From positions 1-64,000 of the forward strand of contig NZ_CP047292.1 of NCBI RefSeq assembly GCF_018279165.1: DNA of 64,000 nucleotides, given 5' to 3'. Each line of letters begins with the position of its first letter. The stretch's first letter is position 1. The notes beneath the pieces are model-generated. The model saw nothing but the letters and a program-made list of their open reading frames with translations, did no database searches and was not told the origin of the DNA. Both the position numbers and the translations under genes were made by a program. This DNA comes from Falsirhodobacter algicola (GTDB taxonomy: Bacteria; Pseudomonadota; Alphaproteobacteria; Rhodobacterales; Rhodobacteraceae). Below, piece by piece: positions 9,367 to 23,465 of the stretch.

Positions 9367-10542
9367 ATGAAGGTCATCATCATCGGGGCGGGGATCGGCG
9401 GGCTCTGTGCGGGCATCGCGCTGACGCGGCAGGGCCATGACGTCACCGTCTTCGAGAAGGTGGCCGACATCCGGCCGGTCGGGGCGGGGCTGTCGCTGTG
9501 GCCGAACGGGATTTCGTGCCTCGAACATCTGGGGCTCGGCGCGGATGTGGCGGCGATGGGCGGGCGCATGGACCGCATGGCCTATGCCGACGGGCTGGGC
9601 GGGCAGGTGCTGACCGATTTCCCGCTGGACCCGCTTTATGAGCAATCGGGCACGCGGGCCTATCCGGTGTCGCGGGCCGAACTTCAGGCGATGCTGATGG
9701 ACCGTTTCGGGCGGGACCGCATCCGCCTTGGAACGGCATTGACCGGGATGACCCTGCACGAAGGCGGGGTGGAGGCCGCGTTTTCGGATGGCAGCACGCA
9801 GGCGGCGGATCTGCTGATCGGCGCGGATGGCGCGCATTCGCTGGTCCGGGCCGAGGTGGTGGGCGCGCGGCTGGATAGGCGCAGCGCGGGCTATACCAAC
9901 TGGAACGGCATCATCCCCGCCGATCCCGCCATCGCCCCCGTCACCGGCTGGACCACCTTCGTCGCCGAGGGCAAGCGCGCCTCGGTGATGCCGATCGGGG
10001 CGGGGCGGTTCTATGTGTTCTTCGACGTGCCGCAGCCGCCGGACATGGCCGGGCCGGACCGTCTGGCCGAACTGCGCGGCCATTTCGCCCATTGGGCCCC
10101 GCCGGTGATCCGCATGATGGACAGCCTCGATCCGCAGGCCGTCAACCGCGTGGACATCCACGACATCGACCCGTTCGAGCCGTGGGTGAAGGGGCGGCTC
10201 GTGCTCTTGGGCGATTCCGCGCACAACACCACGCCCGATCTGGGGCAGGGCGCCTGCATGGCGATGGAGGATGCGGTCGTCTTGGAACGCCTCTTGGCGG
10301 ATGCGGCGGATGCGGCGGATGTCGATGGCGCGCTCGCCGCCTATCAGGCGGAACGCGCGGTGCGCACGCGCGATCTGGTGCTGCGCGCGCGCGATCGCAG
10401 CGATGTCACCCATGGGGCCGATCCGGCCGCGACGGCCGAATGGTATGACAGCCTCGCCGTCGAAACCGGCGAGGGCATCCTGCGCGGCATCCTGAAAACG
10501 GTGGCGGGGGGCCCGCTGGCGGATCAGGCGATGGCGGGCTGA
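9367..10542 (+). CDS. hpxO: FAD-dependent urate hydroxylase (HpxO type)
   Basis: 391-residue flavoprotein monooxygenase of the PHBH fold. It has the FAD dinucleotide motif [17 protein letters not shown] at the N terminus, LIGADGAHS in the middle, and [24 protein letters not shown] (about residues 280-303) for FAD binding. The match to Klebsiella HpxO as I remember it is strong over the whole length, including [39 protein letters not shown] and the tail [13 protein letters not shown]. It would hydroxylate urate to 5-hydroxyisourate with NADH and O2. No other purine genes lie nearby. Its 3' end overlaps the converging ugpC by 19 bp. Confidence 0.88.
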
Positions 10543-11594
10543 CGCAGCGCCGCCACCAGCCGCTGCCCCGACACCGCATCGAAGAGATGCAGCCGGTCCG
10601 CCGGAAGCGCCACGCGCAGCGTGTCCTGAAGCGGCCGTTCGGGCGAAAGCGCGATCGTCAGCGGTTGATCCCCGACGAGGCCATGGACCAGACGCTGCGC
10701 GCCCAGTTCCTCGACATGTTCGGGGCGCAGGATCACGGCATCCTCGGACGGGCCGGCAAGGCGCAGATCCTCGGCCCGCAGGCCCAGCGTCACCGGCCCG
10801 TCCGGCGCCGCGACCGGCAGCGCCACCCCGCCGAAGGATAGCCGCCCCCCATCCACCCGCGCATCCACGAGGTTCATCGCCGGCGCGCCGATGAAGCTCG
10901 CGACGAAGGTGGAGGCCGGCGCGTGATAGATGTCGAGCGGGCGGCCCACCTGTTCGATCCGCCCGCCATTCAGCACCACCAGCCGGTCGGCGAGGGTCAT
11001 CGCCTCCAGCTGATCGTGCGTCACATAGAGCGAGGTGGTCCCCAGACGCTTTTGCAGCTTGCGGATCTCGGCGCGCATGGTCACGCGCAGCCGCGCATCG
11101 AGGTTCGACAAGGGTTCGTCGAAGAGGAAGGCAGCGGGCTTGCGCACGATGGCGCGGCCCATGGCCACCCGCTGACGCTGCCCGCCCGACAGGGCGCGGG
11201 GCTTGCGGTCGAGGTACTGGCCGATCTCCAGCATGCGGGCGGCTTCGGCGACGCGGGCCTCGATCTCGGCCTTGGGGGTGCCGCGGTTCTTCAGGCCATA
11301 GGCGAGGTTCTCGCGCACCGTCATATGCGGATAGAGGGCGTAGTTCTGGAACACCATCGCGATGTCGCGGTCGGCGGGGTCGAGGTCGTTGACCCGCCGC
11401 TCGCCGATCCGAACCTCGCCGCCGGTGATCGCCTCCAGCCCCGCGACCATGCGCAAGAGCGTGGACTTGCCGCAGCCCGACGGGCCGACCAGCACGATGA
11501 ATTCGCCGTCGCGGATGTCGAGGCTGATGCCCTGCACCGCCGTCGTGCCGCCGGCATAGGTCTTTTGCACGTTGTCGAGCGTTATGGTCGCCAT
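10524..11594 (-). CDS. ugpC: sn-Glycerol-3-phosphate ABC transporter ATP-binding protein
   Basis: 356 aa cytoplasmic ATPase for the UgpB-A-E importer. Walker A GPSGCGKS, Walker [15 protein letters not shown], signature [14 protein letters not shown] and H-loop VTHDQ are all present, with a C-terminal TOBE-like domain. The N terminus [15 protein letters not shown] is the form usual for UgpC. The ATG at 11594 is preferred; an in-frame GTG at 11606 would overlap ugpE by eleven bases. It is the last gene of ugpBAEC and converges on the hpxO-like gene with overlapping 3' ends. Confidence 0.92.
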
Positions 11595-11595
11595 G

Positions 11596-12438
11596 TCACT
11601 TGTCACTTTCCGTCAGGCCCTTGATGAACCAGCGCTGGAAGATCACCACCACCGCCACGGGCGGCAGGATGGCCAGCACGGCCAAGGCAAGGGCCTGGTT
11701 GTAGTCGGGGATCTGGCTGCCGACCCAGACCTGAAGGATGGATTTGATGCCGCGCATCAGGGTGAAGAAACGTTCATCCGTCGTCATCAGCATGGGCCAG
11801 AGGTACTGGTTCCAGCCATAGACGAACATGATGATGAAGATCGCCGCGATCATGGTGCGCGACAGCGGCACGATCACGTCGATGAAGAAGCGGATCGGCC
11901 CCGCCCCGTCGATGCGCGCGGCCTCCAGCAATTCGTCCGGGATGGATTTGAAGAACTGGCGGAAATAGAACGTCCCCGTGGCCGAGGCCAGAAGCGGCAC
12001 GATCAGCCCGGTATAGCTGTTGAGCAGCCCCAGATCGGACATCACGCCATAGGTCGGCATGATCCGAACCTCCAGCGGCAGCAGGAGCGTGGTGAAGATC
12101 ACCCAGAACATGAACGTGGCGGCGCGGAAGCGGAAATAGACCAGCGCATAGGCCGCCAGCATCGACAGCACGATCTTGCCCACCGCGAATCCGATGCCGA
12201 GGATCATGGAGTTCATCAGCATCCGCGCCCCCGTCACCTGCCCGGTGAAGCCGCCGCGCTGCGTCAGCACGGTGCCGTAGGTCTCGGCGAAATTGGCGCC
12301 CGGCAGGATCTGAAGGCCGTGGATGTGGATGTCCGCCGCCGTATGGGTGGAGGTGGTGAAGGCCACGAGCACCGGCAGCACCAGAAACAGCGCGCCGAGG
12401 ATCAGGACGATATGATCGAGGGGTCGGGTGCGATGCAT
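11596..12438 (-). CDS. ugpE: sn-Glycerol-3-phosphate ABC transporter permease
   Basis: 280 aa, six membrane helices. It carries the MalG-type inner-membrane loop [23 protein letters not shown] (EAA motif, about residues 183-205) that docks on the ATPase, and the C-terminal GLTESDK typical of UgpE. With UgpA it forms the membrane channel for sn-glycerol-3-phosphate and glycerophosphodiesters. The gene is four bases from ugpA and one base from ugpC, consistent with a single transcript. Confidence 0.93.
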
Positions 12439-12442
12439 GGGA

Positions 12443-13411
12443 TCAACCGTAATGGATGCGCTTCTCGAGGAAGCGGAACTGGACGATGGTCAGTACGAAG
12501 ACGACGACCATCAGGATCACCGACTGCGCCGAGGAGCCGCCGATGTCGTTGCCCCGGAACCCGTCGTTGTAGACCTTGTAGACCAGCGTGATCGGGTTGT
12601 TGGCGGGCTTGTCCTTCACCATCACGTCGATCACCGCGAAAGTGTCGAAGAGCGCATAGGTGATGTCGATGATGAGCAGGAAGAACGCGGTCGGGGCCAG
12701 AAGCGGCAGCACCACGGTGCGGAACCGCGTCCAGCCGTTGCGGCAGTCGATCGCGGCGGCCTCGCGGATGGACATGGGCACGGCCTGAAGGCCCGACAGG
12801 AAGAAGATGAAGTTGTAGGGGATCTGCTTCCACACCGACACGGTGATCATGGCGAAGGCGGTGTCGAAATAATCGAGGCCCACGCGCATGTCCCAGCCGA
12901 AGAAGGCCGCCAGCCGCACGAAGGGGCCGATATGCATGTCGAAGAACATCATCCCGACCAGCCCCGCCACCGGCGGCGCGATCGCATAGACCGAAATCAG
13001 CAGCGTCTTGTAGGTGGCCGCGCCGCGGATCACTGCATCCGCCTTCACCGCCAGCAACAGCCCCAGCACCAGCGACAACGCCGTGACCAGAACCGTGAAC
13101 ACCGCCGTGAACGAGGCGACGCGCCGATATTCCCGGCTCGTCAGCGCATCGACATAGTTGGATAGCCCGACGAAGGCGGAGCCGAAGCCGAACGGATCCT
13201 CGATGTAGAACGAGGATTGGACCGCCTGCACCGACGGCCAGTAGAAGAAGATCACGATCACCGCGAGCTGCGGCGCAAGGAACATCCAAGGCAGGGTCTT
13301 GTGATCGAACTGCACACGCTTGGCGGGTTCGGCGGTGGAGCCTTTGCGCAGGCGGGCGCCGATGCGCGCCATCATGCCCGTCGTGGCGGGGGTGGAGGTG
13401 AGGTCGGCCAA
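12443..13411 (-). CDS. ugpA: sn-Glycerol-3-phosphate ABC transporter permease
   Basis: 322 aa, six core membrane helices plus a cytoplasmic N-terminal extension. The EAA loop REAAAIDCRNGWTRFRTVVLP lies in the last third, and LPWMFLAPQLAVIVIFFYWPSVQAV is the first helix, as in UgpA. The start is taken as TTG at 13411 because a clear ribosome site (gggag) lies six bases upstream; ATG codons 12 and 13 residues later (13375, 13372) lack one. It is separated from ugpB by 67 bp containing a small hairpin. Confidence 0.92.
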   Translation of the reverse strand: MADLTSTPATTGMMARIGARLRKGSTAEPAKRVQFDHKTLPWMFLAPQLAVIVIFFYWPSVQAVQSSFYIEDPFGFGSAFVGLSNYVDALTSREYRRVASFTAVFTVLVTALSLVLGLLLAVKADAVIRGAATYKTLLISVYAIAPPVAGLVGMMFFDMHIGPFVRLAAFFGWDMRVGLDYFDTAFAMITVSVWKQIPYNFIFFLSGLQAVPMSIREAAAIDCRNGWTRFRTVVLPLLAPTAFFLLIIDITYALFDTFAVIDVMVKDKPANNPITLVYKVYNDGFRGNDIGGSSAQSVILMVVVFVLTIVQFRFLEKRIHYG

Positions 13412-13440
13412 GCGTCGCTCCCGCAGGGAAGGGAAGGGGG

Positions 13441-13458
13441 CGGCCCCGCTGGGGACCG
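13441..13458 (-). other. Intercistronic hairpin between ugpB and ugpA
   Basis: An imperfect stem (cggcccc / ggggaccg, one bulged base, 3-base loop) lies in the 67-bp gap after the binding-protein gene. Such stems often protect the upstream binding-protein message or reduce read-through, giving more UgpB than permease. That role is inferred. Confidence 0.4.
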
Positions 13459-13478
13459 CCGATGTTCGGGCGGGCCGA

Positions 13479-14783
13479 TCAGCCGGCCGTCTGGGCGAAG
13501 CGCGCCAGCAGGGCGTCGCCCTCGGATTTGATCGCCTCGAAGGCGTCCGGAACCGTCGTCTCGCCGGAGAAGATGCGGTTGAACTCCCGCTCCATGATCG
13601 ACCGGATCTGCGGGTAGAAACCGAGGCGGTAGCCGCGCGACCACTCGCCGCCGTCCAGCATCAGCTGCTGGATCCCGACTTCGGCGACCGGCTGTTCGTC
13701 ATAGTAGCCTTCGGATTTGGCCAGATCGTAGGCCGCCGTGGTCACGGGGACATAGCCCGTCGCCTCGTGCCAGTATTTCTGCACCTCGGGCGAGGTGAGG
13801 TACTGGAAGAAGGCCGCGGTGCAGGCATTCTCCGCTTCCGATTTGCCGGACATGGCGAAGAGGGCCGCGCCGCCGATGAAGGTGTTGGTGCCCGCACCCT
13901 CGATATCGCCCCAATAGGGCAGGAACTCGGCCGAGAAGGGCATCTGCGCGGTCTGTTGCAGCCCGCCGAACGAGCCGGAGGAGCCGATCCACATCGCCAC
14001 CTTGTTCTGTTCGAACGGGGTCTGGTTGTCGGCCCAGCCGGCGCCGTAGAAGGCGTAGTAGCCTTCGTCCTGCCATTCCTTCAGCTTCTCGAACATGCGG
14101 ACCAGCTGGGGATCGGTGACGTTGATCTCGGTGCCCTTGATCGAGTCGTAACCGTTGTTGTTCGTCGCGAACTGGATGTTGTTGCGGGAGAAGAAGTTCT
14201 CCACCATCATCCATGTCAGCTGGCTGGCGGTCATCGGGATGTAGCCGGCCTCTTTCAGGGCGGGGGCGACGTCCTCGAACTCTTCCCACGTCTTGGGCGG
14301 CTCCACACCGGCGGCCTCGAAGGCTTCGGTGTTGATGTACATGATCGGCGCGGAGGAGTTGAAGGGCATGCCCACGAACTTGCCGTCCGCATCGGCGTAG
14401 AAGTAGCGCACGCCTTGGATGAAGGCCTCGCGGTCGAAGTCGTAGCCGGCCTGCTTGATCAGGTCCTCGGCGGGGATGACGGCGCCGGGGGCGTTGATGA
14501 TCGTGGCCGCGCCCGCATCGAACACCTGAAGGATGTTCGGCTGTTCGCCCGAACGGAAGGCGGCGATGCCGGCCGACAGCGCCTCTTCGTAGGTGCCGCG
14601 CGACACCGGGGTCAGGTTGCACTGATCCTGGCTGTCGTTGAACTGCGAAGAGATCTGATTGATCACCTCTTGGTTCTTGCCGCCCATCCCGTGCCACCAC
14701 GTGATGTCGGTGACGCCTTGGGCCGCCGCAGCGACCGGAGAGATGCCGAGCGCCAGAAGCGCGATCGTCGAAGTCAGTTTCAT
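13479..14783 (-). CDS. ugpB: sn-Glycerol-3-phosphate ABC transporter substrate-binding protein
   Basis: 434 aa periplasmic protein. A signal peptide ends at VAAAAQG (about residue 22); the mature start VTDITWWHGMGGKNQEVI and the segments FRSGEQPNILQVFDAGAATI and MPFNSSAPIMYINTEAF are characteristic of UgpB. It captures sn-glycerol-3-phosphate or glycerophosphodiesters for UgpAE. First gene of ugpBAEC. A three-repeat Pho box lies 57-85 bp upstream of its start, so phosphate-starvation induction through PhoB is likely. Confidence 0.95.
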   Translation of the reverse strand: MKLTSTIALLALGISPVAAAAQGVTDITWWHGMGGKNQEVINQISSQFNDSQDQCNLTPVSRGTYEEALSAGIAAFRSGEQPNILQVFDAGAATIINAPGAVIPAEDLIKQAGYDFDREAFIQGVRYFYADADGKFVGMPFNSSAPIMYINTEAFEAAGVEPPKTWEEFEDVAPALKEAGYIPMTASQLTWMMVENFFSRNNIQFATNNNGYDSIKGTEINVTDPQLVRMFEKLKEWQDEGYYAFYGAGWADNQTPFEQNKVAMWIGSSGSFGGLQQTAQMPFSAEFLPYWGDIEGAGTNTFIGGAALFAMSGKSEAENACTAAFFQYLTSPEVQKYWHEATGYVPVTTAAYDLAKSEGYYDEQPVAEVGIQQLMLDGGEWSRGYRLGFYPQIRSIMEREFNRIFSGETTVPDAFEAIKSEGDALLARFAQTAG

Positions 14784-14839
14784 GGTCCGTCCTCATCGTT
14801 CGGGATGGCGCACGCCTATGGTATGGGTACGACGCCCAT

Positions 14840-14868
14840 GTGACGGGTTCATGACAGCGATATGACGG
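14840..14868 (-). promoter_or_regulatory. Triple Pho box upstream of ugpB
   Basis: Read on the minus strand, three 7-mers CCGTCAT, CTGTCAT and CCGTCAC are spaced by exactly four bases (11-bp period), matching the PhoB box CTGTCAT-N4-CTGTCAT with one extra half-site. In + coordinates the half-sites are 14862-14868, 14851-14857 and 14840-14846. A possible -10 region (catacc/taccat) lies around 14815-14829. Orientation points to ugpBAEC, the classic PhoB target. The lactonase on the other strand starts 62 bp away and could also be affected. Confidence 0.85.
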
Positions 14869-14930
14869 GCCGCCCCCCGCGCTTGCCCCGCGCCCGCCGC
14901 GCACTACGCTGCGAAGGATGGGAGGACGGC

Positions 14931-15791
14931 ATGATCTTTGATGATACGCGCTGCGAATTGGGCGAAGGCGCCCTGTGGCATCCCGTCCGGGAGGCCCTTT
15001 TCTGGTTCGACATTCACGGCCACCGCCTGCATGGCGAAGGGCGGACATGGCAATGGCACGAAGCCGTCTCCTCGGCCGGGTGGATCGACCGGGACCGCCT
15101 CTTCGTCGCATCGGGCAGCGGGCTGTGGGAGATGGACTTGCGCCATGACACCCGCCGCCGCGTCGTCGCATTGGAGGAGGAGGATACCGGAACCCGGTCC
15201 AACGACGGCAAGGCCGATCCGTGGGGCGGGTTCTGGATCGGCACCATGGGCCGCAACGGCGAAGAGGATCGCGGCGCGCTCTATCGTTATTACGACGGCG
15301 AATTGCGCCGATTGCGCGCGCCGATGACCGTGCCGAACGGGCTGTGTTTCGACCGGGCGCGGGGGGTGGGCTATGTCTCGGACACGCCGCGCCACAAGGT
15401 CTGGCGGCACCGGCTGGACCCGGCCACGGGCTGGCCCATCGGCGAGGAGGAGCTGTTCCTCGATCTGTCGGACGGGCCGCACGGCCCCGACGGCGCCACG
15501 CTGGACAGCGAGGGCCGGTTCTGGAGCGCGCAATGGGGATCGTCGCGCGTCGCCTGCTATTCCCCCGAGGGGCATTTTCTGGGCGAGATCCCGTTTCCCG
15601 CCAGCCTGACGACCTGCCCGGCCTTCGGCGGGCCGGGGCTGGACGAATTGTTCGTGACCACGGGGCAGGAGGATTTCACCGACCGCCAGCGCGATGCCGA
15701 ACCCCATGCCGGCAAGACCTTCTGCGTGCCGGCGATGCTGAACGGGCAGCGCGTGCAGGGTGTGCCGGAACCGGCGGTCCGCCTGCCCTAA
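14931..15791 (+). CDS. SMP-30/gluconolactonase/LRE-family lactonase
   Basis: 286 aa six-bladed beta-propeller hydrolase. Metal-ligand positions are recognisable: Glu in CELGEGALWHP near residue 10, Asn in SNDGKADPWGGFWIGTMG near 95, Asn in PNGLCFD, and Asp in HGPDGATLDSEGRFWSAQWG. Family members hydrolyse sugar-acid lactones such as gluconolactone, arabinonolactone or xylonolactone. The ATG at 14931 is chosen for the ggagg six bases upstream; an ATG at 14862 would begin inside the Pho box. No sugar-acid pathway surrounds it, so the substrate stays open. Confidence 0.88.
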   Translation: MIFDDTRCELGEGALWHPVREALFWFDIHGHRLHGEGRTWQWHEAVSSAGWIDRDRLFVASGSGLWEMDLRHDTRRRVVALEEEDTGTRSNDGKADPWGGFWIGTMGRNGEEDRGALYRYYDGELRRLRAPMTVPNGLCFDRARGVGYVSDTPRHKVWRHRLDPATGWPIGEEELFLDLSDGPHGPDGATLDSEGRFWSAQWGSSRVACYSPEGHFLGEIPFPASLTTCPAFGGPGLDELFVTTGQEDFTDRQRDAEPHAGKTFCVPAMLNGQRVQGVPEPAVRLP

Positions 15792-16078
15792 CAGGGGGCC
15801 ATCCACAGGATGCCGGAAAAGCACAGCGCCACCGCCGCGCTGGCGGCGATGCCCGTCAGCGTGGCCGTGCGGCGCAGGAACGGATCGGCGCTGCGCCGCG
15901 CCAGCGCCAGCGGCACCAGCGACAAGAGCGCGAACCCCGCCAGCATCGCGATCAGCACCGCGCGCAGAACGCCGCGCGGCCAACCGAGGCTGCACCCCGT
16001 CGCCTGCGTGGCGTAAAGCGCCAGAAACGCCGCCGACCAGACGAGGAACCCCCCCAGAAGCGCGATCAGAACCCTCAT
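15788..16078 (-). CDS. Small membrane protein at the end of the oxidase operon
   Basis: 96 aa with three hydrophobic helices (LIALLGGFLVWSAAFLALY, AVLIAMLAGFALLSLVPLAL and the C-terminal TGIAASAAVALCFSGILW). Not recognised as a named family. Its ATG overlaps the stop of the subunit I-III gene (ATGA), so it is probably co-translated and may be an accessory or small oxidase subunit. The 3' end overlaps the lactonase gene by four bases. GC and codon use match the neighbours. Confidence 0.75.
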   Translation of the reverse strand: MRVLIALLGGFLVWSAAFLALYATQATGCSLGWPRGVLRAVLIAMLAGFALLSLVPLALARRSADPFLRRTATLTGIAASAAVALCFSGILWMAPC

Positions 16079-18477
16079 GCCGGAGCCCCCGTCAGAAGGG
16101 ACAGCGCCGGCGGGAACAGCGCGGCCAGCATGCCCGAGAGGCCCGCATAGCGGTGCCATGTGGCCGCGATGGCCCCATCGCGGCCAAAGCCGCGCAGCGC
16201 CACCGCGCCGAGGATCAGCCCGATCCCGGCATGGACCGCCGCAAAGGACAGCACCGCCATCACCGTCGCCGGGGCGGCATGGGCGGTGGCATCGCCCACG
16301 CGCATCAGCGCCGCCGCCAGCCCCGCCAGCACCGCCGCCTGCAACGCCACCGCCGCCCATCCGCGCGCCAGCACCATCAGCGCGGCATTGGCCAGAAACG
16401 GTAGCGCCAGAATCCCGCCGATGCGCACCGGATCCTCGGGCGGCCATCCGGGCGCGGACATCCACAGGAACCCCGCCCCGAACAGCAGCGAGGCGAAGGC
16501 CGTCGCATCCGCCACCACCAGAAGCCGGATCGCCCAGAGCGAGGGCGGATCGTCGCTGCTGCGATGCTGCGGCAAGGACAGCCCCATCCCCGCATCGAGC
16601 ACACCCGGCGCCTTGCGCCCCCGCGTCCAGCACAGCAAAAGGCCCACCGTCAGCGCGGCAAAGGCGATGGCCAGCGGATAGACCTTGAACAGCATCCCCG
16701 CAAAGACCCCCATCGTCGCCAGCGCCGACCACAGCGGCAGATAGGTCGGATGCGGCAGGAAGATGATCTGTCGCGGCGCGCCGGTGATGGGATCGACGCC
16801 CAGCGTCTCCAGCTCTCCGCGCGGGGTGGCCAGCAGGCCGCGCCCGGCGGCGAGGTCCGCACCCATACGCTCCACCTCGAGGCGGTCGGCGCGCCGGTCG
16901 ATCACCGGGATCGCCCCGAACGCATAGGAGGGCGGCGGCGTCGGGGTCGTCCATTCCAGCGTTCCGGCCCCCCACGGGTTACGGCGGAACGGCCGACCGA
17001 AGCGCATCAGCAGCACCAGATCCAGCGCCAGCAGCGCAAAGCCGATCGTGGTCACGAATCCCCCGATGGAGGAGACGAGGTTCAGCACCTCCCACAGCGG
17101 ATCGGAATAGCGGTAGGACCGCCGCGTCATGCCCAGAAGGCCCGTCAGGTGCATGTGCAAAAAGGTCAGGTTGAACCCGGCGAAGATGGTCCAGAAGGCG
17201 GCCTGCGACATCTGATGCACCGGCATCCGCCCGCAGATATGGGGCAGCCAGTAATAGGCCCCCGCCATCATGGGAAAGACGAAACCGCCGACCAGAACGT
17301 AATGCAGATGCGCCACCACGAAATGGGTGTCATGGACCTGCATGTCGAAGGGCACCATCGCCAGCATCACCCCCGACAACCCGCCGCAGACGAACACGAA
17401 GAAGAACCCGAACACATGCAGCATCGGGATCGACAGGCGCGGCCGCCCCGTCCCCATCGTGCCCAGCCAAGCAAAGACCTGCACCGCCGTCGGCAGCGCC
17501 ACCAGCGCGCTGGAGATGGAGAAGAAGGACAAGGACAGATGCGGGATGCCCGTGGTGTACATGTGATGCACCCACAGCCCGAACGAGAGGAAGGCCATCG
17601 CCACCAACGCCGCCACCACCACCCGGTACCCGGCCAGCTGCGTGCCCGAAAAGACCGGGATCACCGTGGACAGCACCCCCGCCGCCGGCAGGAAGATGAT
17701 ATAGACCTCCGGGTGGCCGAACAGCCAGAACAGATGCTGCCATAGAAGCGGATCGCCCCCGCGCAACGGATCGAAGAAGGGCAGGCCGAAGGCGCGCTCG
17801 GCCTCCAAGAGGAGCGAGCCGAGGATCAGCGGCGGAAAGCCCACCAGCATCATCCCCCCCACGATCAGCATGTACCACGCAAAGATCGGCAACCGATCGA
17901 GCGACATGCCCGCGCCCCGCAGCTTCAGGATGGTGACGACGATCTCCACCGCCGCGGACATGGCGGAGATTTCGACGAAGGTGATGCCCAGAAGCCATAT
18001 GTCGGACTGGATGCCCGGCGTGAACGTGGCCGAGGAGAGCGGCGGATAGAGGAACCAGCCCGCATTCGGCGCAACGCCCAGCAAAAGCGCCACCACCAGC
18101 GTCGCCCCGCCGAAGGCATAGCACCAGAAGCCATAGGCCGACAGGCGCGGGAACGCCATGTCCCGCGCGCCCAGCATCTTGGGCAGAAGATACATCGCCA
18201 GCCCCTCGAAGAAGGGGATCGCGAAGAGGAACATCATCACCACGCCGTGCATGGTGAAGACCTGCGCATAGGTCTCGGCCTCCATGAACGGGCTCTCGGC
18301 CGAGGCGAGCTGCGTGCGGATCAGCATCGCAAGGATGCCGCCGATGGCGAAGAACACGAGCGCCGCGATCATGAAGCGCCGCCCCATGATCGTATGGTTC
18401 ACCGCCGAAAGGCGCTGAAGCCCCGGCCCCGTGCCCCAGATCCGTTCCAGCGCGTGATGGCGTTCGATGGGGGTCAT
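16075..18477 (-). CDS. Cytochrome c oxidase subunits I and III fused (haem-copper oxidase)
   Basis: 800 aa. Residues 1-~560 are subunit I: low-spin haem His in FTMHGVVMMF near 77, the CuB His-Tyr pair and Glu in WLFGHPEVYIIFLP near 254, CuB histidines in VHHMYTTG near 302, and haem ligands in HDTHFVVAHLHYV near 382-393. The last ~200 residues form a subunit III-like helical domain. The D-channel Asp is kept (ARDMAFPR), but the usual channel asparagines are absent (GLAMYLLP, RLSAYGFW) and the K-channel Lys of FKTPM is Ser (LSIPM, near 349). ATGA overlaps couple it to the subunit II gene upstream and to the small gene downstream. Inner-membrane terminal oxidase. Confidence 0.93.
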   Translation of the reverse strand: MTPIERHHALERIWGTGPGLQRLSAVNHTIMGRRFMIAALVFFAIGGILAMLIRTQLASAESPFMEAETYAQVFTMHGVVMMFLFAIPFFEGLAMYLLPKMLGARDMAFPRLSAYGFWCYAFGGATLVVALLLGVAPNAGWFLYPPLSSATFTPGIQSDIWLLGITFVEISAMSAAVEIVVTILKLRGAGMSLDRLPIFAWYMLIVGGMMLVGFPPLILGSLLLEAERAFGLPFFDPLRGGDPLLWQHLFWLFGHPEVYIIFLPAAGVLSTVIPVFSGTQLAGYRVVVAALVAMAFLSFGLWVHHMYTTGIPHLSLSFFSISSALVALPTAVQVFAWLGTMGTGRPRLSIPMLHVFGFFFVFVCGGLSGVMLAMVPFDMQVHDTHFVVAHLHYVLVGGFVFPMMAGAYYWLPHICGRMPVHQMSQAAFWTIFAGFNLTFLHMHLTGLLGMTRRSYRYSDPLWEVLNLVSSIGGFVTTIGFALLALDLVLLMRFGRPFRRNPWGAGTLEWTTPTPPPSYAFGAIPVIDRRADRLEVERMGADLAAGRGLLATPRGELETLGVDPITGAPRQIIFLPHPTYLPLWSALATMGVFAGMLFKVYPLAIAFAALTVGLLLCWTRGRKAPGVLDAGMGLSLPQHRSSDDPPSLWAIRLLVVADATAFASLLFGAGFLWMSAPGWPPEDPVRIGGILALPFLANAALMVLARGWAAVALQAAVLAGLAAALMRVGDATAHAAPATVMAVLSFAAVHAGIGLILGAVALRGFGRDGAIAATWHRYAGLSGMLAALFPPALSLLTGAPA

Positions 18478-19172
18478 GGCAGATCCTCGGGGGGCCAGAT
18501 GGCATGGGCGCGGGCGGTGAAGCTCATATCCACATGGCCGATGCCGCAATATTCGGCGCAGACGCCGCCATAGTCGCCCGGCGCATCGGCGCGCAGGCGC
18601 AGGGTGTTGGCATGGCCGGGAATGGCGTCGATCTTGCCGCCGAGGCGCGGGATCCAGAAGCTGTGGATCACATCGGGGCTGGTCACCACCATCTCCACCT
18701 CTTGTCCGGCGGGCAGATGCAGGACGCCCTCGGTCGGGGGCAAGCCGGTGGCGGGGGGATAGGCGAAGCGCCAGCCCCACATATAGGCCTCCGCCTCGAT
18801 GCGCAGGGCAGGCGGGCCGGCGCGCAGCGCCTCGCCCTGCCATAGGGCGGTGCCGGTGACGGCAAGGATCACCGGCAGCGGCAGCGCGATCCCGCCCCAG
18901 ACGATCCAGCGGCGGGCGGGGATGCGGCGGCCCGCCTCGGGGCGCAGCATCAGCACCGCAAAGAGCGTCAGCACCACCGCGAAGATCAGCGACGAGCCTG
19001 CCAGCATCGCCCACCACAGCCGCGCGATGCCCAAGGCGGCGGGGCCCGCCGGGTCCAAAGTGGACAGCCGCCCCCCGCATCCGGCAAGAAGAAACGGGAA
19101 CCCGAGCGCCCCCGCCGCGCTTGACCGACGAAGGAGGCGCCGATGACCGACACCGCCGAAGACCTGAGCCAT
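18474..19172 (-). CDS. Cytochrome c oxidase subunit II, lipoprotein-like
   Basis: About 232 aa. The CuA site is intact: His in DVIHSFWIPRLGGKIDAIPGH, and CAEYCGIGHVDM supplies two Cys, a His and a Met. No cytochrome c domain follows. Two membrane helices precede the cupredoxin domain. The N terminus has an arginine-rich stretch then FLLAGC, a good lipobox, so the mature protein may be lipid-anchored. No in-frame start exists between that region and the ATG at 19172, so the start lies 30 bp inside the divergent DUF2231 gene and has no clear ribosome site; start confidence is modest. It precedes the subunit I-III gene by an ATGA overlap. Confidence 0.87.
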   Translation of the reverse strand: MAQVFGGVGHRRLLRRSSAAGALGFPFLLAGCGGRLSTLDPAGPAALGIARLWWAMLAGSSLIFAVVLTLFAVLMLRPEAGRRIPARRWIVWGGIALPLPVILAVTGTALWQGEALRAGPPALRIEAEAYMWGWRFAYPPATGLPPTEGVLHLPAGQEVEMVVTSPDVIHSFWIPRLGGKIDAIPGHANTLRLRADAPGDYGGVCAEYCGIGHVDMSFTARAHAIWPPEDLP

Positions 19173-19676
19173 GCCCACGAGACGCAGGGCGCCGCCGACA
19201 ACCCCGTCATTCAGGCGGTGGAGGAGAAGAGCACCGAATCCGCCATCGCCTTCGCGGGCCATCCGCTGCACGCCATGGCCGTGCATTTCCCCATCGCGCT
19301 GGTGGTCTGCACCTTCGGGATCGACCTCATCTATTGGTTCACGGGCGATGCGTTCTGGCACCGGGTCGGGGTCTGGTCCTCGGGCGGGGCGTTTCTGGCG
19401 GGGGTGGGGGCGGGCCTCATCGGCACGGTCGAACTGCTGGCCGTGCCCGGCATCCGCGCCCGCGCCGCAAGCTGGGCGCATGCCATCGCCGCCATGGTGC
19501 TGCTGGCGATCATCGGCACCAACTGGGGCGGTCGCCTGACCGAGCGGATGGATGTCCTGCCCCATGGCATGATCCTTTCGCTTCTGGGCTGCGTGATGGC
19601 GGGCCTTGCGGGCTGGCATGGCGGCAAGCTGATCTTCGATCACGGCATCGGCCTCATGGTTTCGCCCAAGGATTGA
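19143..19676 (+). CDS. DUF2231 membrane protein
   Basis: 177 aa with four membrane helices. HAMAVHFPIALVVCTFGIDL contains the conserved His-Phe-Pro of DUF2231 proteins, whose function is unknown. The ATG at 19143 has an excellent ribosome site (aaggagg, 19131-19137). Divergent from, and overlapping at the 5' end with, the oxidase subunit II gene; DUF2231 genes often accompany oxidases or redox proteins, so a membrane redox role is possible. Its 3' end overlaps the converging CopD-like gene by 23 bp. Confidence 0.85.
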   Translation: MTDTAEDLSHAHETQGAADNPVIQAVEEKSTESAIAFAGHPLHAMAVHFPIALVVCTFGIDLIYWFTGDAFWHRVGVWSSGGAFLAGVGAGLIGTVELLAVPGIRARAASWAHAIAAMVLLAIIGTNWGGRLTERMDVLPHGMILSLLGCVMAGLAGWHGGKLIFDHGIGLMVSPKD

Positions 19677-20196
19677 AGGGGGCGAGCATCTCGCCAAGGG
19701 CGCCGGGCCGGAAGATGTCCGCCGGCAGGGCGGGCGGGCTCGGCTTGGCCAGCACCAGAAACAGGATCGCAAGGATGATCCCCCCCGTCGCCACCATCAC
19801 CACCGCAAAGCGCCACAGCGGATAGGTCTGCCCCTCGCGGAAGAGGCGGATGACCACGAGGCCGCTGAGGACATGGACGATGGCCAGCAGCGCCACCAGC
19901 GTCATCTTGGCCGAAAACCACGCCTCGAACGTGCCCTGAAGGAAGATCAGCGCGATGCCGCTGCCGATCGCCACGAACGCCGCCGGAGAGATCACGGCGA
20001 CATAGGCGAAGCGCACGATCGTCTGAAGCTGCAGCAGGGTCTTCGTATCCGCGATGCCCGCGCGCTTCAGATAGAGGCCGGGCAGGCTGACGAGGCCCGC
20101 CGCCCAAAGGGCGATGGCGGCGATATGAAGGCTTTTCGCAATCTCGATCACGCGCGGTCCGGATTCCGTGATGGGGTGGCCATGGCTCCGGAACAT
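19654..20196 (-). CDS. CopD/HemJ-superfamily-like four-helix membrane protein
   Basis: 180 aa with about four or five membrane helices. EIAKSLHIAAIALWAAGLVSLPGLYLKR at the N terminus resembles the first helix of CopD-like and HemJ-like membrane proteins, including the conserved His. Possible roles are copper handling or haem-related redox chemistry, either of which would suit the adjacent oxidase, but the sequence does not decide. It converges on the DUF2231 gene with overlapping ends. The first ATG in frame is used. Confidence 0.7.
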   Translation of the reverse strand: MFRSHGHPITESGPRVIEIAKSLHIAAIALWAAGLVSLPGLYLKRAGIADTKTLLQLQTIVRFAYVAVISPAAFVAIGSGIALIFLQGTFEAWFSAKMTLVALLAIVHVLSGLVVIRLFREGQTYPLWRFAVVMVATGGIILAILFLVLAKPSPPALPADIFRPGALGEMLAPFNPWAKP

Positions 20197-20303: not shown

Positions 20304-20330
20304 TAGGGCAGCTTATTCGTGGAGGAAGCA

Positions 20331-21338
20331 ATGGCGATCCGTTTCAAACCCCTTCTGGGCCTTGCCCTCGCGGCGGGCGTGCTGTCCTCGGCTGCTGCGG
20401 CGCAGGACATGGCCTTCTTCCGCATCGGCACGGGCGGCACGGCGGGCACCTATTATCCGATCGGCGGGCTGATCGCGAACGCCATCTCCAACCCGCCCGG
20501 CTCGCGCGCCTGCGAAGACGGCGGCTCCTGCGGGGTGCCGGGGCTGATCGCCACGGCCGTCGCCTCCAACGGCTCGGTCGGGAACATCAACGCGATCAAT
20601 TCGGGCGCGATGGAAAGCGGCTTCAGCCAGGCCGACGTCGCCACTTGGGCGCAGACGGGCACCGGCCTCTGGGAAGGCCAGCCGGCGGTCGAGAACCTGC
20701 GCATGATTGCCAACCTCTATCCCGAAAGCATCCACCTCGTGGCCCGCGCCGATGCCGGGATCGAGGGGATTGCCGATCTGGCGGGCAAACGCGTGTCGCT
20801 GGATGAACCGGGTTCGGGCACGCTGGTGGATGCGCGCATCATCCTCGGGGCCTATGGCCTGTCGGAATCGGATGTGGATGCCGAATACCTCAAGCCCGAT
20901 CAGGCGGCCGACCGTATGCGCGACGGCGCGATGGACGCGTTCTTCTTCGTCGGCGGTTTCCCGGCGGGCGCGATCGCCGAACTGGCCAGCCAGCATGACG
21001 TGACGCTGATCCCGATCGACGGCGAGGGTGCGGAGGCGATCCGCGCCGAATACGGCTTCTTCTCGGCGAACACGGTTCCGGCCGGCACCTACGAGGGGCA
21101 GGACACCGACGTGACGACGCTCTCGGTCGGCGCCCAATGGGTGACGAACGCGAACCAGCCCGAAGAGCTGATCTACAACATCACCAAGGCGATGTGGAAC
21201 GACAACACCCGCCGCATGTTCGATGCGGGCCACGCCAAGGGCAAGGAAATCGTGCTGGAGAACGCCGTGAACGGCGTCGGCATTCCGTTCCACCCCGGCG
21301 CGGAACGCTTCTACCGCGAAGCGGGCGTGCTGCAGTAA
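20331..21338 (+). CDS. TRAP transporter substrate-binding protein, TAXI family
   Basis: 335 aa periplasmic receptor. A signal peptide ends near VLSSAAAAQDM (about residue 24). FRIGTGGTAGTYYPIGGLIANAIS and NINAINSGAMESGFSQADVA are the hallmarks of TAXI-type TRAP receptors, which bind small organic acids or amino acids such as glutamate. The ATG at 20331 follows ggagg by six bases. The fused TRAP permease lies 69 bp downstream, so the pair forms a complete Na+- or H+-driven importer. The ligand is unknown. Confidence 0.93.
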   Translation: MAIRFKPLLGLALAAGVLSSAAAAQDMAFFRIGTGGTAGTYYPIGGLIANAISNPPGSRACEDGGSCGVPGLIATAVASNGSVGNINAINSGAMESGFSQADVATWAQTGTGLWEGQPAVENLRMIANLYPESIHLVARADAGIEGIADLAGKRVSLDEPGSGTLVDARIILGAYGLSESDVDAEYLKPDQAADRMRDGAMDAFFFVGGFPAGAIAELASQHDVTLIPIDGEGAEAIRAEYGFFSANTVPAGTYEGQDTDVTTLSVGAQWVTNANQPEELIYNITKAMWNDNTRRMFDAGHAKGKEIVLENAVNGVGIPFHPGAERFYREAGVLQ

Positions 21339-21407
21339 GCCGCGCGACACCGATGGGACGGGGTGGCATGCGTGCCGCCCCGTTTTGCATATTCTGAGGA
21401 CGGACAC

Positions 21408-23465
21408 ATGACCACGCCCGACACCCGCACCGAACCGCTCAGCGCGGATGAGCTGAAGGCCTTGGAGGAGAAGTTCGACCCCGAACTGCGCTTCCGCGCG
21501 CTTGGACCGGCGCTTGCGATCCTGTCGGGGCTGCTGCTGTTCCTGCTGTCCTGCTATCACTTCTACACCGCCGGTTTCGGCATCCCGCGCGCCACGACGC
21601 ATCGCGGGCTGCATATGGCGGTGACGCTGTTCCTCGTCTTCGTCAGCTTCTCGGCCTTCGGGCGGCGGGACCGGCCGTCGGGGCTGCTGGCCCCGCTGGG
21701 CCTACCGCTGGCCGATTGGGTGCTGGGGATCGCGGCGGCGGTCGCCTCGCTCTATGTGCCGTGGATCTATGACCAGCTGGCCTTCCGCGTCGGCAATCCG
21801 AATACGCTGGATGTGGCGATGGGCACGATCCTGATCGTGACCTTGCTGGAGGCGGTGCGCCGGTCCATGGGCTGGCCGCTGCCGGTGATCGCGATCCTGT
21901 TCATGTGCTATGCCTATTTCGGACAGTCGATGCCGGGCATCTTCGTGCATCCGGGCGCAACCTGGCCGGTGATCGTGAACCACCTCTACCTCACCTCGCA
22001 GGGGATCTACGGCACGGCGCTCGGCGTGATCGCCACCTATGTGTTCCACTTCGTGCTGTTCGGGGTGATGGCGACGCGGATCGGGCTGGGGCAGCTCTTC
22101 ATCGACGTCGCCTCGGCGCTGACGGGGCGGTTCGCGGGCGGTCCGGCCAAGGTGTCGGTGGTGTCCTCGGCGCTGCTCGGCTCGATCTCCGGCTCGTCCA
22201 TCGCGAACACGGTGACGACGGGGGCGCTGACGATCCCGGCCATGGTGCGCGTCGGATACCAGCGCCATTTCGCAGCGGCGGTGGAGGCCGCATCCTCCAC
22301 CGGCGGGCAGATCACGCCGCCGGTGATGGGGGCGGTGGCCTTCCTGATGATCGAATATCTGGGCGTTCCGCTGACCACGATCCTGCTGGCGGCGATCGTT
22401 CCGGCCTTCATGCATTTCTTCGGGGTGCTGCTGCAGGTCCATCTGGAGGCCCGCCGCCTCGGCCTGCGCGGCCTGACCAAGGAAGAGCTTCCGAACGCGC
22501 TGAAGGTGATCCGCGAAGGGTGGCTGTCGATCCTGCCGCTGATCCTGCTGATCGCCATGCTGATGAGCGGGCGGACCCCGTTCCTTGCCGCCTTCTGGGC
22601 CATCGTCGCCTGCATCGGGGTGATGATCGTGCAATCGGTCATGCGCCTCGGCGTGACCGAGGGGATGAAGGACGCGGCCCGCGGCCTGTGGGACGGGTTC
22701 GTGCTGGGCGCCAAGCAGTCGCTGTCGGTGACGGCGGCGGCGGCGCTGGTGGGCATCATCATCGGCATCGTCACCCTGACGGGCGTCGGGTTCAAGATCG
22801 CCTACATGGTCACGGGTCTGGCCTCGGGCTGGGCGCAGGATGTGCATGGCCTGCTGTCGGTCCTGCCGTTCGAGTTGATGGGCATTCCGGCGCTGACGCT
22901 GCTCTTCACGCTGATGATGACGGCGGTCGTCTGCATCCTGATGGGCTGCGGCATCCCGACCACGGCGAACTACATCATCATGGTGGCGGTGGCGGCCCCG
23001 ATCCTCGGCCTTCTGGGCGTGCAGCCGATCGTCGCGCATTTCTTCGTCTTCTATTACGGCGTGCTGGCGGATGTGACACCGCCCGTGGCGCTGGCGGCCT
23101 ATGCCGCGTCGGGGATCGCGGGGGCGAACGCGTTTCAGGCGGGCAACACCGCGTTCCGCCTGTCGATGGGCAAGGCGCTGGTGCCGTTCGTCTTCGTCTT
23201 CTCGCCCGCGCTGCTGCTGGTGACGCCGGAATTCACGGTGCCGGCCTTCCTGCTGGCGGCGGGCGGGGCGATGCTGGGCATCTTCGCGCTGTCGGCGGCG
23301 ATCACCAACTGGATGCTCGCGCCGCTTCATGCGTGGGAACGGGCGCTCTTGGTGGTGGCGGCGCTTCTGCTGATCGCGCCTGCGCTGGTGCCGACGGTGA
23401 TCGGCTGCGTCTTCCTCGCGGTGCCGCTGCTGCGCCAGCTCATGGCCCGCCGCGCCGCAGCCTGA
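21408..23465 (+). CDS. TRAP transporter fused small/large permease (TAXI-associated)
   Basis: 685 aa with many membrane helices. The N-terminal part corresponds to the DctQ-like small subunit, and the rest to DctM, with conserved segments SSALLGSISGSSIANTVTTGALTIP, SSTGGQITPPVMGAVAFLM and CGIPTTANYIIMV. It works with the TAXI receptor encoded just upstream. The ATG at 21408 lies nine bases after 'gagga'. A strong terminator follows directly, so the operon is two genes long. Confidence 0.95.
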   Translation: MTTPDTRTEPLSADELKALEEKFDPELRFRALGPALAILSGLLLFLLSCYHFYTAGFGIPRATTHRGLHMAVTLFLVFVSFSAFGRRDRPSGLLAPLGLPLADWVLGIAAAVASLYVPWIYDQLAFRVGNPNTLDVAMGTILIVTLLEAVRRSMGWPLPVIAILFMCYAYFGQSMPGIFVHPGATWPVIVNHLYLTSQGIYGTALGVIATYVFHFVLFGVMATRIGLGQLFIDVASALTGRFAGGPAKVSVVSSALLGSISGSSIANTVTTGALTIPAMVRVGYQRHFAAAVEAASSTGGQITPPVMGAVAFLMIEYLGVPLTTILLAAIVPAFMHFFGVLLQVHLEARRLGLRGLTKEELPNALKVIREGWLSILPLILLIAMLMSGRTPFLAAFWAIVACIGVMIVQSVMRLGVTEGMKDAARGLWDGFVLGAKQSLSVTAAAALVGIIIGIVTLTGVGFKIAYMVTGLASGWAQDVHGLLSVLPFELMGIPALTLLFTLMMTAVVCILMGCGIPTTANYIIMVAVAAPILGLLGVQPIVAHFFVFYYGVLADVTPPVALAAYAASGIAGANAFQAGNTAFRLSMGKALVPFVFVFSPALLLVTPEFTVPAFLLAAGGAMLGIFALSAAITNWMLAPLHAWERALLVVAALLLIAPALVPTVIGCVFLAVPLLRQLMARRAAA

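Follow-up and report, generated by a model that had tools for sequence, protein, structure and literature searches.

The first 64,000 nucleotides of Falsirhodobacter algicola contig NZ_CP047292.1 (assembly GCF_018279165.1), here called the window, encode a cytochrome c oxidase whose subunits I and III are fused, and this locus raises the question of how such an enzyme moves protons when residues of both its proton channels have been exchanged. The window lies on a contig of 97,617 bases (C4) in a genome of 2.78 Mb (G000). A preliminary description, aligned by eye to Rhodobacter sphaeroides subunit I, had held that the oxidase lacks the K-channel lysine and the D-channel asparagines and that it may use another proton path. 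The absences were borne out and the assignment of the lysine was not; the replacement of N207 by Glu178, the glutamates Glu91 and Glu169, and the loss of a glutamate in subunit II had been overlooked. The family to which the oxidase belongs is known, and its proton supply looks remodelled; the changes are real, are shared by the relatives that were read, and are more coherent than had first been described. Residue numbers such as K362, N121, N139 and N207 follow R. sphaeroides subunit I, and those such as Gln333 and Glu178 follow the window protein.

The oxidase is a fused member of family A

The gene is as follows.

16075..18477, minus strand: ctaD-ctaE fusion, cytochrome c oxidase subunit I plus III (800 amino acids, one intact reading frame)

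Its product scores far above the Pfam cut-off for COX1, and residues 23 to 525 match the NCBIfam model TIGR02891 (CtaD_CoxA) barely over the cut-off (673.9 versus 670.75 bits). Pfam reported no COX3 domain in the C-terminal part of the 800-residue chain. In the AlphaFold model (predicted local distance difference test score 84, predicted template modeling score 0.90), residues 17 to 792 match the I+III chain of Thermus caa3 (2yev) over 728 aligned residues (Z 36.8). This is the longest fold match, with a Z tied within 1 with that of the top row, an Escherichia coli bo3 chain, and Foldseek ranks 2yev first. The length of the chain and the fold match of its C-terminal part thus agree with the fused I-III oxidase of the preliminary description and mark a subunit I-III fusion of the kind found in COX operon type a.

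The sites of the heme a, heme a3 and CuB ligands (H102, H284, H333, H334, H419 and H421) are all His in the window oxidase. The subtype A1 motif GHPEVY (PMC8361435), with E286 and the cross-link Tyr, is kept as well (His-Tyr pair, His255/Tyr259). A B-family (ba3-like) assignment was rejected, since the best named profiles are of the A family, with the SoxB quinol-oxidase model far behind (90 versus 674 bits, NCBIfam), and a 55-row tree groups the window with A-family rows, set apart from L160 and L164, two distant rows of uncertain family. The window oxidase is a family A enzyme by fold and descent, and it is not a canonical A1 oxidase by its channel fingerprint. The closest named homologues among the matches listed are those of Paracoccus sediminis and P. 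yeei (69% identity); two Rhodopseudomonas palustris loci (L040, L050) are also among the close relatives in these matches.

Both ionizable groups of the K-path are absent

Two codons of subunit I and the upstream gene for subunit II bear on the K-path.

17479..17481, minus strand: Gln333, the site of R. sphaeroides K362, the K-channel lysine (alignments, codon located)
17431..17433, minus strand: Ser349, the site of R. sphaeroides K378 (LSIPM), not the K-channel lysine (alignments, codon located)
18474..19172, minus strand: coxB, subunit II, with CuA motif CAEYCGIGHVDM, lipobox-like LLAGC and no K-channel entry Glu (profiles, alignments)

The preliminary description had taken the lysine of FKTPM for that of the K-channel and had read its counterpart in the window as the Ser of LSIPM. 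The LSIPM segment is indeed present, with Ser349. The FKTPM lysine (LKTPM in the numbered R. sphaeroides chain) is K378, however, a site that carries Lys, Arg, Asp, Glu or Thr in canonical rows. The true K-channel segment reads PTGIKIF in R. sphaeroides, with K362 as the channel lysine (PMC8239185), and PTAVQVF in the window, with Gln333; the window oxidase thus lacks the K-channel lysine of A1 enzymes, and the original claim was right by accident. Misalignment at position 362 is ruled out by the alignment with R. sphaeroides, which runs without a gap from the His-His pair through LSIPM. Four solved actinobacterial chains pair PTAVQ in the same way; the gap of two residues that sets them apart comes after the His-His pair, and from there through PTAVQ the alignment is gapless. 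A lysine at the channel position had been named as the finding that would overturn the description; no alignment places one there, and Gln takes its place.

Relatives were drawn from the best 80 of at least 591 encoded relatives, and the sample therefore leans toward near relatives. An alignment of 163 rows was made from these 80 nearest loci and from loci found in further genome searches, of which 49 of the 52 newly added gave a COX1 row and L161, L163 and L165 gave none. Two copies of the window (L002, L086) and the C-family-like L005 were left out; L168 and L169 were counted with an unfused branch described below, L175 and L176 duplicate this pair, and L191 is the gene of L090 again. Oxidases with Gln at position 362 are called Q-type here, and the K362 rows form the canonical comparison group. 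The 163 rows comprise 99 with Gln at 362 and Glu at 207, 56 with Lys and Asn, one each with Gln and Ala, Gln and a gap (a partial row), Ser and Asn, and Leu and Asn, and four distant rows. Excluding the partial L096 and two unfused rows, 98 fused Q-type rows remain, the window included. As the groups were sorted by residue 362 itself, Gln in 98/98 is so by construction; the independent part lies in the linked residues (121, 139, 198 and 207) and in the trees.

A replacement lysine elsewhere in helix VIII was sought and rejected, as Lys is absent from R. sphaeroides positions 343 to 371 in 98/98 fused Q-type rows. The same stretch is without any charged residue in 93 of them (Glu in 4, Arg in 1). 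The S365 site is mostly Ala (82/98). Among the 103 A-family-like rows of the wide alignment without Lys at 362, Gln replaces it in 101, and the other two carry Ser and Leu. The Ser row, L098 (genome G015, same family), is a COX1-like open reading frame with Trp at 286 and Asn at 207, and represents another oddly channelled oxidase; the Leu row, L162 (genome G148), is a COX1 on a long branch with Ala at 286, Val at 359 and Tyr at 299.

According to the available part of PMC8239185, the K-path opens at a Glu of subunit II, E101 in R. sphaeroides. This entry Glu is found in 40/40 readable canonical rows (41 rows, one gap) and in 0/80 readable family rows (81 rows, one gap), and the window CoxB is likewise without the entry Glu of A1 oxidases. 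The window residue opposite it is Val or Trp by two alignments, in which the exact column is unsure, and neither is acidic. No acidic residue occurs from six before to eight after the entry-Glu column in 66/81 family CoxB rows. Eight CoxB proteins of the unfused branch also lack the entry Glu in a spot check, and two CuA-less subunit II genes of G000 keep it.

The window CoxB scores slightly below the NCBIfam TIGR02866 cut-off (142.8 versus 147.7 bits), and a possible, unproven start is the ATG at 19172, which would overlap the start of a DUF2231 gene. By a strict pattern, the CuA ligands are complete in 72/81 family CoxB rows. The axial Met of CuA (CxEYCGxGHxxM) is replaced by His, a natural CuA ligand variant, in 8/81 (L070, L072, L074, L075, L076, L079, L082 and L085), and L084 has Val at this site.

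The asparagine gate of the D-channel is replaced and glutamates are gained

The D-channel residues of subunit I were located as follows.

17944..17946, minus strand: Glu178, the site of N207 in the D-channel wall (Glu in 98/98 fused Q-type rows, Asn in 56/56 K362 rows)
18205..18207, minus strand: Glu91, one helical turn before the N121 site (Glu in 98/98 fused rows; Gly, Thr, Val or Gln in 56/56 K362 rows)
17971..17973, minus strand: Glu169, the site of G198 in helix IV (Glu in 98/98 fused rows and 9/9 unfused Q-type genes)
18193..18195, minus strand: Met95, the D-channel N121 site (alignments, codon located)
18139..18141, minus strand: Ser113, the D-channel N139 site (alignments, codon located)
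18160..18162, minus strand: Asp106, the site of D132 at the D-channel entry, kept (alignment, codon located)
17707..17709, minus strand: Glu257, the site of E286 at the end of the D-channel, kept (alignment, codon located)

The asparagines of GFGNYFMP and RMNNLS are absent, as had been described, with Met95 in the former and Ser113 and Ala114 at the first and second Asn of the latter (N139 and N140); S142 is replaced by Gly116. The D-channel Asp, the Glu of GHPEVY and the His-Tyr pair are retained, as was also noted at the outset. As in A1 enzymes, Asp occupies the entry site D132, in 97/98 fused Q-type rows including the window. The E286 site is Glu in 84/98 rows and Asp in the other 14, which read GHPDVY (for example L042, L043, L046 and L067, and Burkholderiales loci such as L054 and L061).

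In the available part of PMC10341450, the D-channel is outlined by 17 residues. Seven of these, T24, Y33, N121, N139, S142, S201 and N207, hold in 47 to 56 of the 56 K362 rows, and 93 to 98 of the 98 fused Q-type rows carry other residues there; S197 varies in both groups. Asn207, Asn121 and Asn139 are each present in 56/56 K362 rows; in the fused Q-type rows Asn never occurs at the N121 or N139 site, the latter being Ser, Thr, Gly or Ala. Gln at 362 travels with Glu at 207, Glu at 198 and Glu four residues before 121, each in 98/98 fused rows, and five further fused Q-type genes match at these positions. The position four before 121 was counted without gaps, since canonical enzymes differ by one residue at R. 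sphaeroides G117. Linked substitutions that are identical in 98/98 fused sequences are not chance. In the AlphaFold model, Glu91 lies in a predicted helix at residues 67 to 102, and Glu169 and Glu178 in one at 156 to 185.

Descent and an unfused sister branch

Trees of 55 and 41 chosen rows were built with the trait columns removed. L098 and L162, the odd rows, occur only in the 55-row tree, as do the distant L160 and L164; in this tree 24 fused Q-type rows form one group (support 100/99) and four changes are needed at position 362. In the 41-row tree, all 24 Q-type rows, 16 fused and 8 unfused, form one clade (100/99) with a single change at 362.

The unfused sister branch, which may correspond to operon type a-II or to Bradyrhizobium CoxMNOP-like oxidases, is represented here by nine genes. 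They carry Gln at 362 and Glu at 198 in 9/9 cases and Glu at 207 in 7/9; the two with Ala at 207 have Gln four before 121, as does a third alongside Glu at 207. D132 is replaced in 8/9 (Asn in seven, His in one), N139 is kept in 8/9, and the T359 site is Ser, Asn or Ala in 9/9. With D132 lost and Glu at 198 and 207 present, the pattern looks as if a carboxylate had moved. According to the available part of PMC8361435, proton uptake in canonical enzymes is blocked when Asn takes the place of D132, so the unfused branch should either have another proton donor or not turn over. Four annotated plasmid copies of this branch share their operons with coxB, genes for c-type cytochromes and for an oxidoreductase, and a gene for cytochrome oxidase assembly; a subunit 3 is annotated in three of the four as well. 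This setting argues against decay. The plasmids are those of Mesorhizobium, Ensifer and Rhizobium (L193 to L196), and the oxidoreductase paired with the oxidase without D132 is of the PQQ (pyrroloquinoline quinone) or FdhF/YdeP type in 4/4 loci.

A proposed rebuilding of the proton supply and its alternatives

With active-site and electron-entry residues intact, the window oxidase should reduce O2 with electrons from cytochrome c, which would enter at CuA in CoxB and pass through heme a to the heme a3-CuB-tyrosine site. From the residues, their constancy in the rows read, the single clade and the intact active site, we infer a route, a share of protons for each path and a change in pumping. 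Specifically, we give an even chance to the reading that the window encodes a functional A-family oxidase (COX1-3, operon type a) that takes its protons mainly through a carboxylate-lined D-type path and whose pumping is altered or weaker. The proton supply would have been rebuilt as one unit: the K-path would have lost both ionizable groups, the Glu of subunit II and K362 (now Gln), and the Asn/Ser gate of the D-path (N121, N139, S142 and N207) would have given way to apolar and small residues and Glu178, with Glu91 and Glu169 in the same helices. As the ionizable groups of the K-path are gone and mostly unreplaced nearby, whereas the D-path keeps both ends and gains carboxylates, the D-type path probably carries most or all of the substrate protons, and pumping would be gated differently or more weakly than in canonical enzymes. 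The earlier suggestion of another proton path is thus supported at the level of sequence, by the lost ionizable ends of the K-path and by carboxylates in D-path helices of the relatives. Single substitutions close to the mouth of the D-path weaken or eliminate pumping (PMC8361435, available part), and by analogy the pumping of the window oxidase would be expected to differ, as the preliminary description had plausibly proposed; the effect of a change of the whole gate cannot be read from single mutants.

Several observations weigh against this reading. Of the K-path residues, T359 is kept in 97/98, S299 in 92/98 and Y288 in 98/98 fused Q-type rows, and the S327 site is Ser in 98/98 (also in 22/56 K362 rows); given these, a K-path without lysine may still conduct. 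In 15/81 CoxB rows, an acidic residue that precedes the lost entry Glu by a few positions might take over its role. In the D-path, S200 is kept in 94/98 rows. That the new glutamates line a single water path is deduced from helix positions, and by our own reckoning of helical phase Glu169 would sit on the margin of the D-channel face and not fully within it. Finally, the 55-row tree leaves two unfused Q-type rows unplaced near its base, not with the fused rows.

The kept residues are the core of a serious rival, which we consider doubtful: Gln333, T330, S270 and S298 of the window protein, together with waters, would relay protons to the tyrosine, pumping would be essentially normal, and the D-path changes would be compensatory tuning. 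B-family oxidases are held to relay K-path protons with Thr. The preponderance of Gln at the lysine site (101/103) makes that site look constrained, and B- and C-type oxidases have only a K-channel (PMC8239185, available part). Such a relay fits poorly with the loss of the subunit II entry Glu, with the replacement of S365 mostly by Ala, with Ser, Asn or Ala at the T359 site in all nine unfused genes, and with the consensus that K-channel delivery needs K362 (PMC10341450, available part). It is tentatively conceivable that the Q-type clade represents a third channel design among heme-copper oxidases, with the K-path permanently shut, all substrate protons and any pumped ones entering by one D-type path, and the entry carboxylate moved from D132 to Glu198/Glu207 so that D132 became dispensable in the unfused branch.

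It is also possible, though we think it unlikely, that the enzyme is decoupled, pumping weakly or not at all, and serves as an electron sink for periplasmic dehydrogenases via small c-type cytochromes, favoring flux over pumping. A PQQ-dehydrogenase cluster adjoins 14/80 loci (one member identified), further PQQ-type genes occur at L171 and L183, L172 has a GMC oxidoreductase and a cytochrome c beside the oxidase, and the oxidoreductases and c-type cytochromes of the unfused operons point the same way. Moreover, the P. denitrificans variant 3ehb has, by alignment, Asp at the N139 site, its title naming a decoupling D-pathway mutation, and the N139 and N207 sites are changed in 98/98 fused rows. 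In R. sphaeroides, Asp at N207 reportedly decouples likewise. However, the family carries Ser, Thr, Gly or Ala at the N139 site and Glu at N207 rather than the tested Asp, and many sites changed together; no dehydrogenase was noted beside the window copy, and such clusters are missing from most of the 80 loci in the stretch covered. In addition, the two Q-type enzymes are the sole CuA-type A-family oxidases found in G000, and a pure overflow role would leave cytochrome c oxidation to a C-family-like enzyme. That the oxidase reduces nitric oxide or another substrate rather than O2 is very improbable: altered channels recall non-pumping enzymes and nothing else speaks for it, against the retained GHPEVY motif with its cross-link Tyr, the His ligands of CuB and both hemes, and a Caa3_CtaG cluster (one member identified) in 71/80 loci. 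A decaying or structural remnant without catalysis is hardly credible; residues critical in model enzymes are lost, yet the frame and metal ligands are intact, relatives carry the same changes, and synteny is conserved.

Relation to known oxidases

COX1-3 proteins and operon type a were described in PMC4013037, which uses the COX1-3 of R. palustris, and were renamed A1 oxidases, subtype a, in PMC6431628, as far as the available parts of these papers go. The window oxidase resembles them in being a proteobacterial I-III fusion; those parts do not describe a combined loss of K-path groups and gain of D-path glutamates. Likewise, our searches of open-licence literature gave no account of this combination, although the catalogues of channel variants to which PMC8239418 points, in its supplement and in a 2020 paper, may overlap with it.

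The canonical aa3 oxidases of R. sphaeroides (1m56) and P. denitrificans (1ar1) share with the window oxidase the fold, active-site residues, D132, E286 and a CuA subunit II. The window enzyme differs from them in the replacement of K362, subunit II E101, N121, N139, S142 and N207, in Glu at three D-path helix sites, in the I-III fusion, and in the Caa3_CtaG cluster near most of its relatives. Thermus caa3 (2yev) is alike by fold. Archaeal family A oxidases show K-channel variants and losses, seven losses having been counted under a hypothesis that the paper itself rejects (PMC8239418, available part). Loss of the K-channel within family A is thus shared with them, whereas the window clade is bacterial and its loss is coupled to D-path Glu changes.

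The unfused sister oxidases share Gln362, Glu198, the lost subunit II Glu and one clade with the window oxidase, and differ in being unfused, in Asn or His at D132 and in the retained N139 (each in 8/9). With the B-family (ba3), the window oxidase would share reliance on a single input path without lysine, a likeness that is proposed. B-family enzymes keep a K-type path and have no D path (PMC8239185, available part); the reverse is proposed for the window oxidase, whose sequence and motifs are of family A.

Gene neighborhood and the oxidases of the genome

Around ctaD-ctaE and coxB, the following genes were found.

15788..16078, minus strand: small membrane-protein open reading frame of 95 to 96 amino acids following ctaD, a putative extra oxidase subunit (relatives in 41/80 loci)
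19143..19676, plus strand: DUF2231 membrane protein, divergent (Pfam PF09990; relatives in 79/80 loci)
19654..20196, minus strand: HemJ/CopD-like membrane protein, UPF0093 (Pfam PF03653 over cut-off, below the NCBIfam HemJ cut-off; relatives in 78/80 loci)

The small membrane protein gave no significant Pfam or NCBIfam family. CoxB relatives are present in 80/80 loci, and synteny kept in nearly all 80 suggests selection. The HemJ/CopD-like protein is a possible copper or heme helper; a copper-delivery role is reasonable by analogy, because an actinobacterial protein that joins CopD-like and Caa3_CtaG domains serves oxidase assembly (PMC9145763, available part). The DUF2231 and HemJ/CopD-like genes (19143 to 20196) are candidates for uncharacterised assembly factors. 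The Caa3_CtaG match of G000 is on contig C1, next to L003, the second fused gene of Q-type, and away from the window copy.

PF00115 is matched five times in G000: by the window gene, L003, two K362 enzymes and, weakly, a C-family-like one. G000 also has four COX2 matches. The CuA motif is present in both of those next to Q-type genes and missing from both next to K362 enzymes, and the K362 enzymes are therefore taken to be quinol oxidases. Both CuA-type A-family oxidases found in G000 are thus Q-type, and the window enzyme may be a main cytochrome c oxidase of this genome. A role outside main respiration, which the preliminary description had raised, is conceivable as well, some relatives being neighbors of periplasmic-type dehydrogenases. 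A single heme A synthase, CtaA, is encoded (G000:C2:118093), as expected of a genome with an aa3 oxidase. All 7 genomes of the genus that were searched, G000 among them, have a Q-type gene; in G003 its two parts lie at opposite ends of one contig.

On a P. yeei plasmid (L183, 6001 to 8025), the homologue carries the label “cbb3-type cytochrome c oxidase subunit I,” apparently in error, as alignment places its near relative L007 and the window with the A-family enzymes. Flanking the oxidase locus in the window are sugar ABC transporter genes (named by eye) with an SMP-30/gluconolactonase-like gene (Pfam) at 10524 to 15791 and a TAXI/TRAP-type transporter pair (named by eye) at 20319 to 23465.

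Implications for proton movement in family A

Two long-standing questions, why family A needs two proton inputs and how its Asn gate links chemistry to pumping, have been studied largely by mutating two-input enzymes. The Q-type oxidases offer a natural test of proton movement, in which evolution made the combined change and kept it in 98 fused sequences, together with a sister branch that lacks D132 in 8/9 genes. Should Q-type enzymes prove active, the rule that K362 is required for K-channel delivery, as given in the available part of PMC10341450, would either not extend to them or there would be no K-channel delivery in these enzymes. If they pump, the Asn gate would not be essential to pumping.

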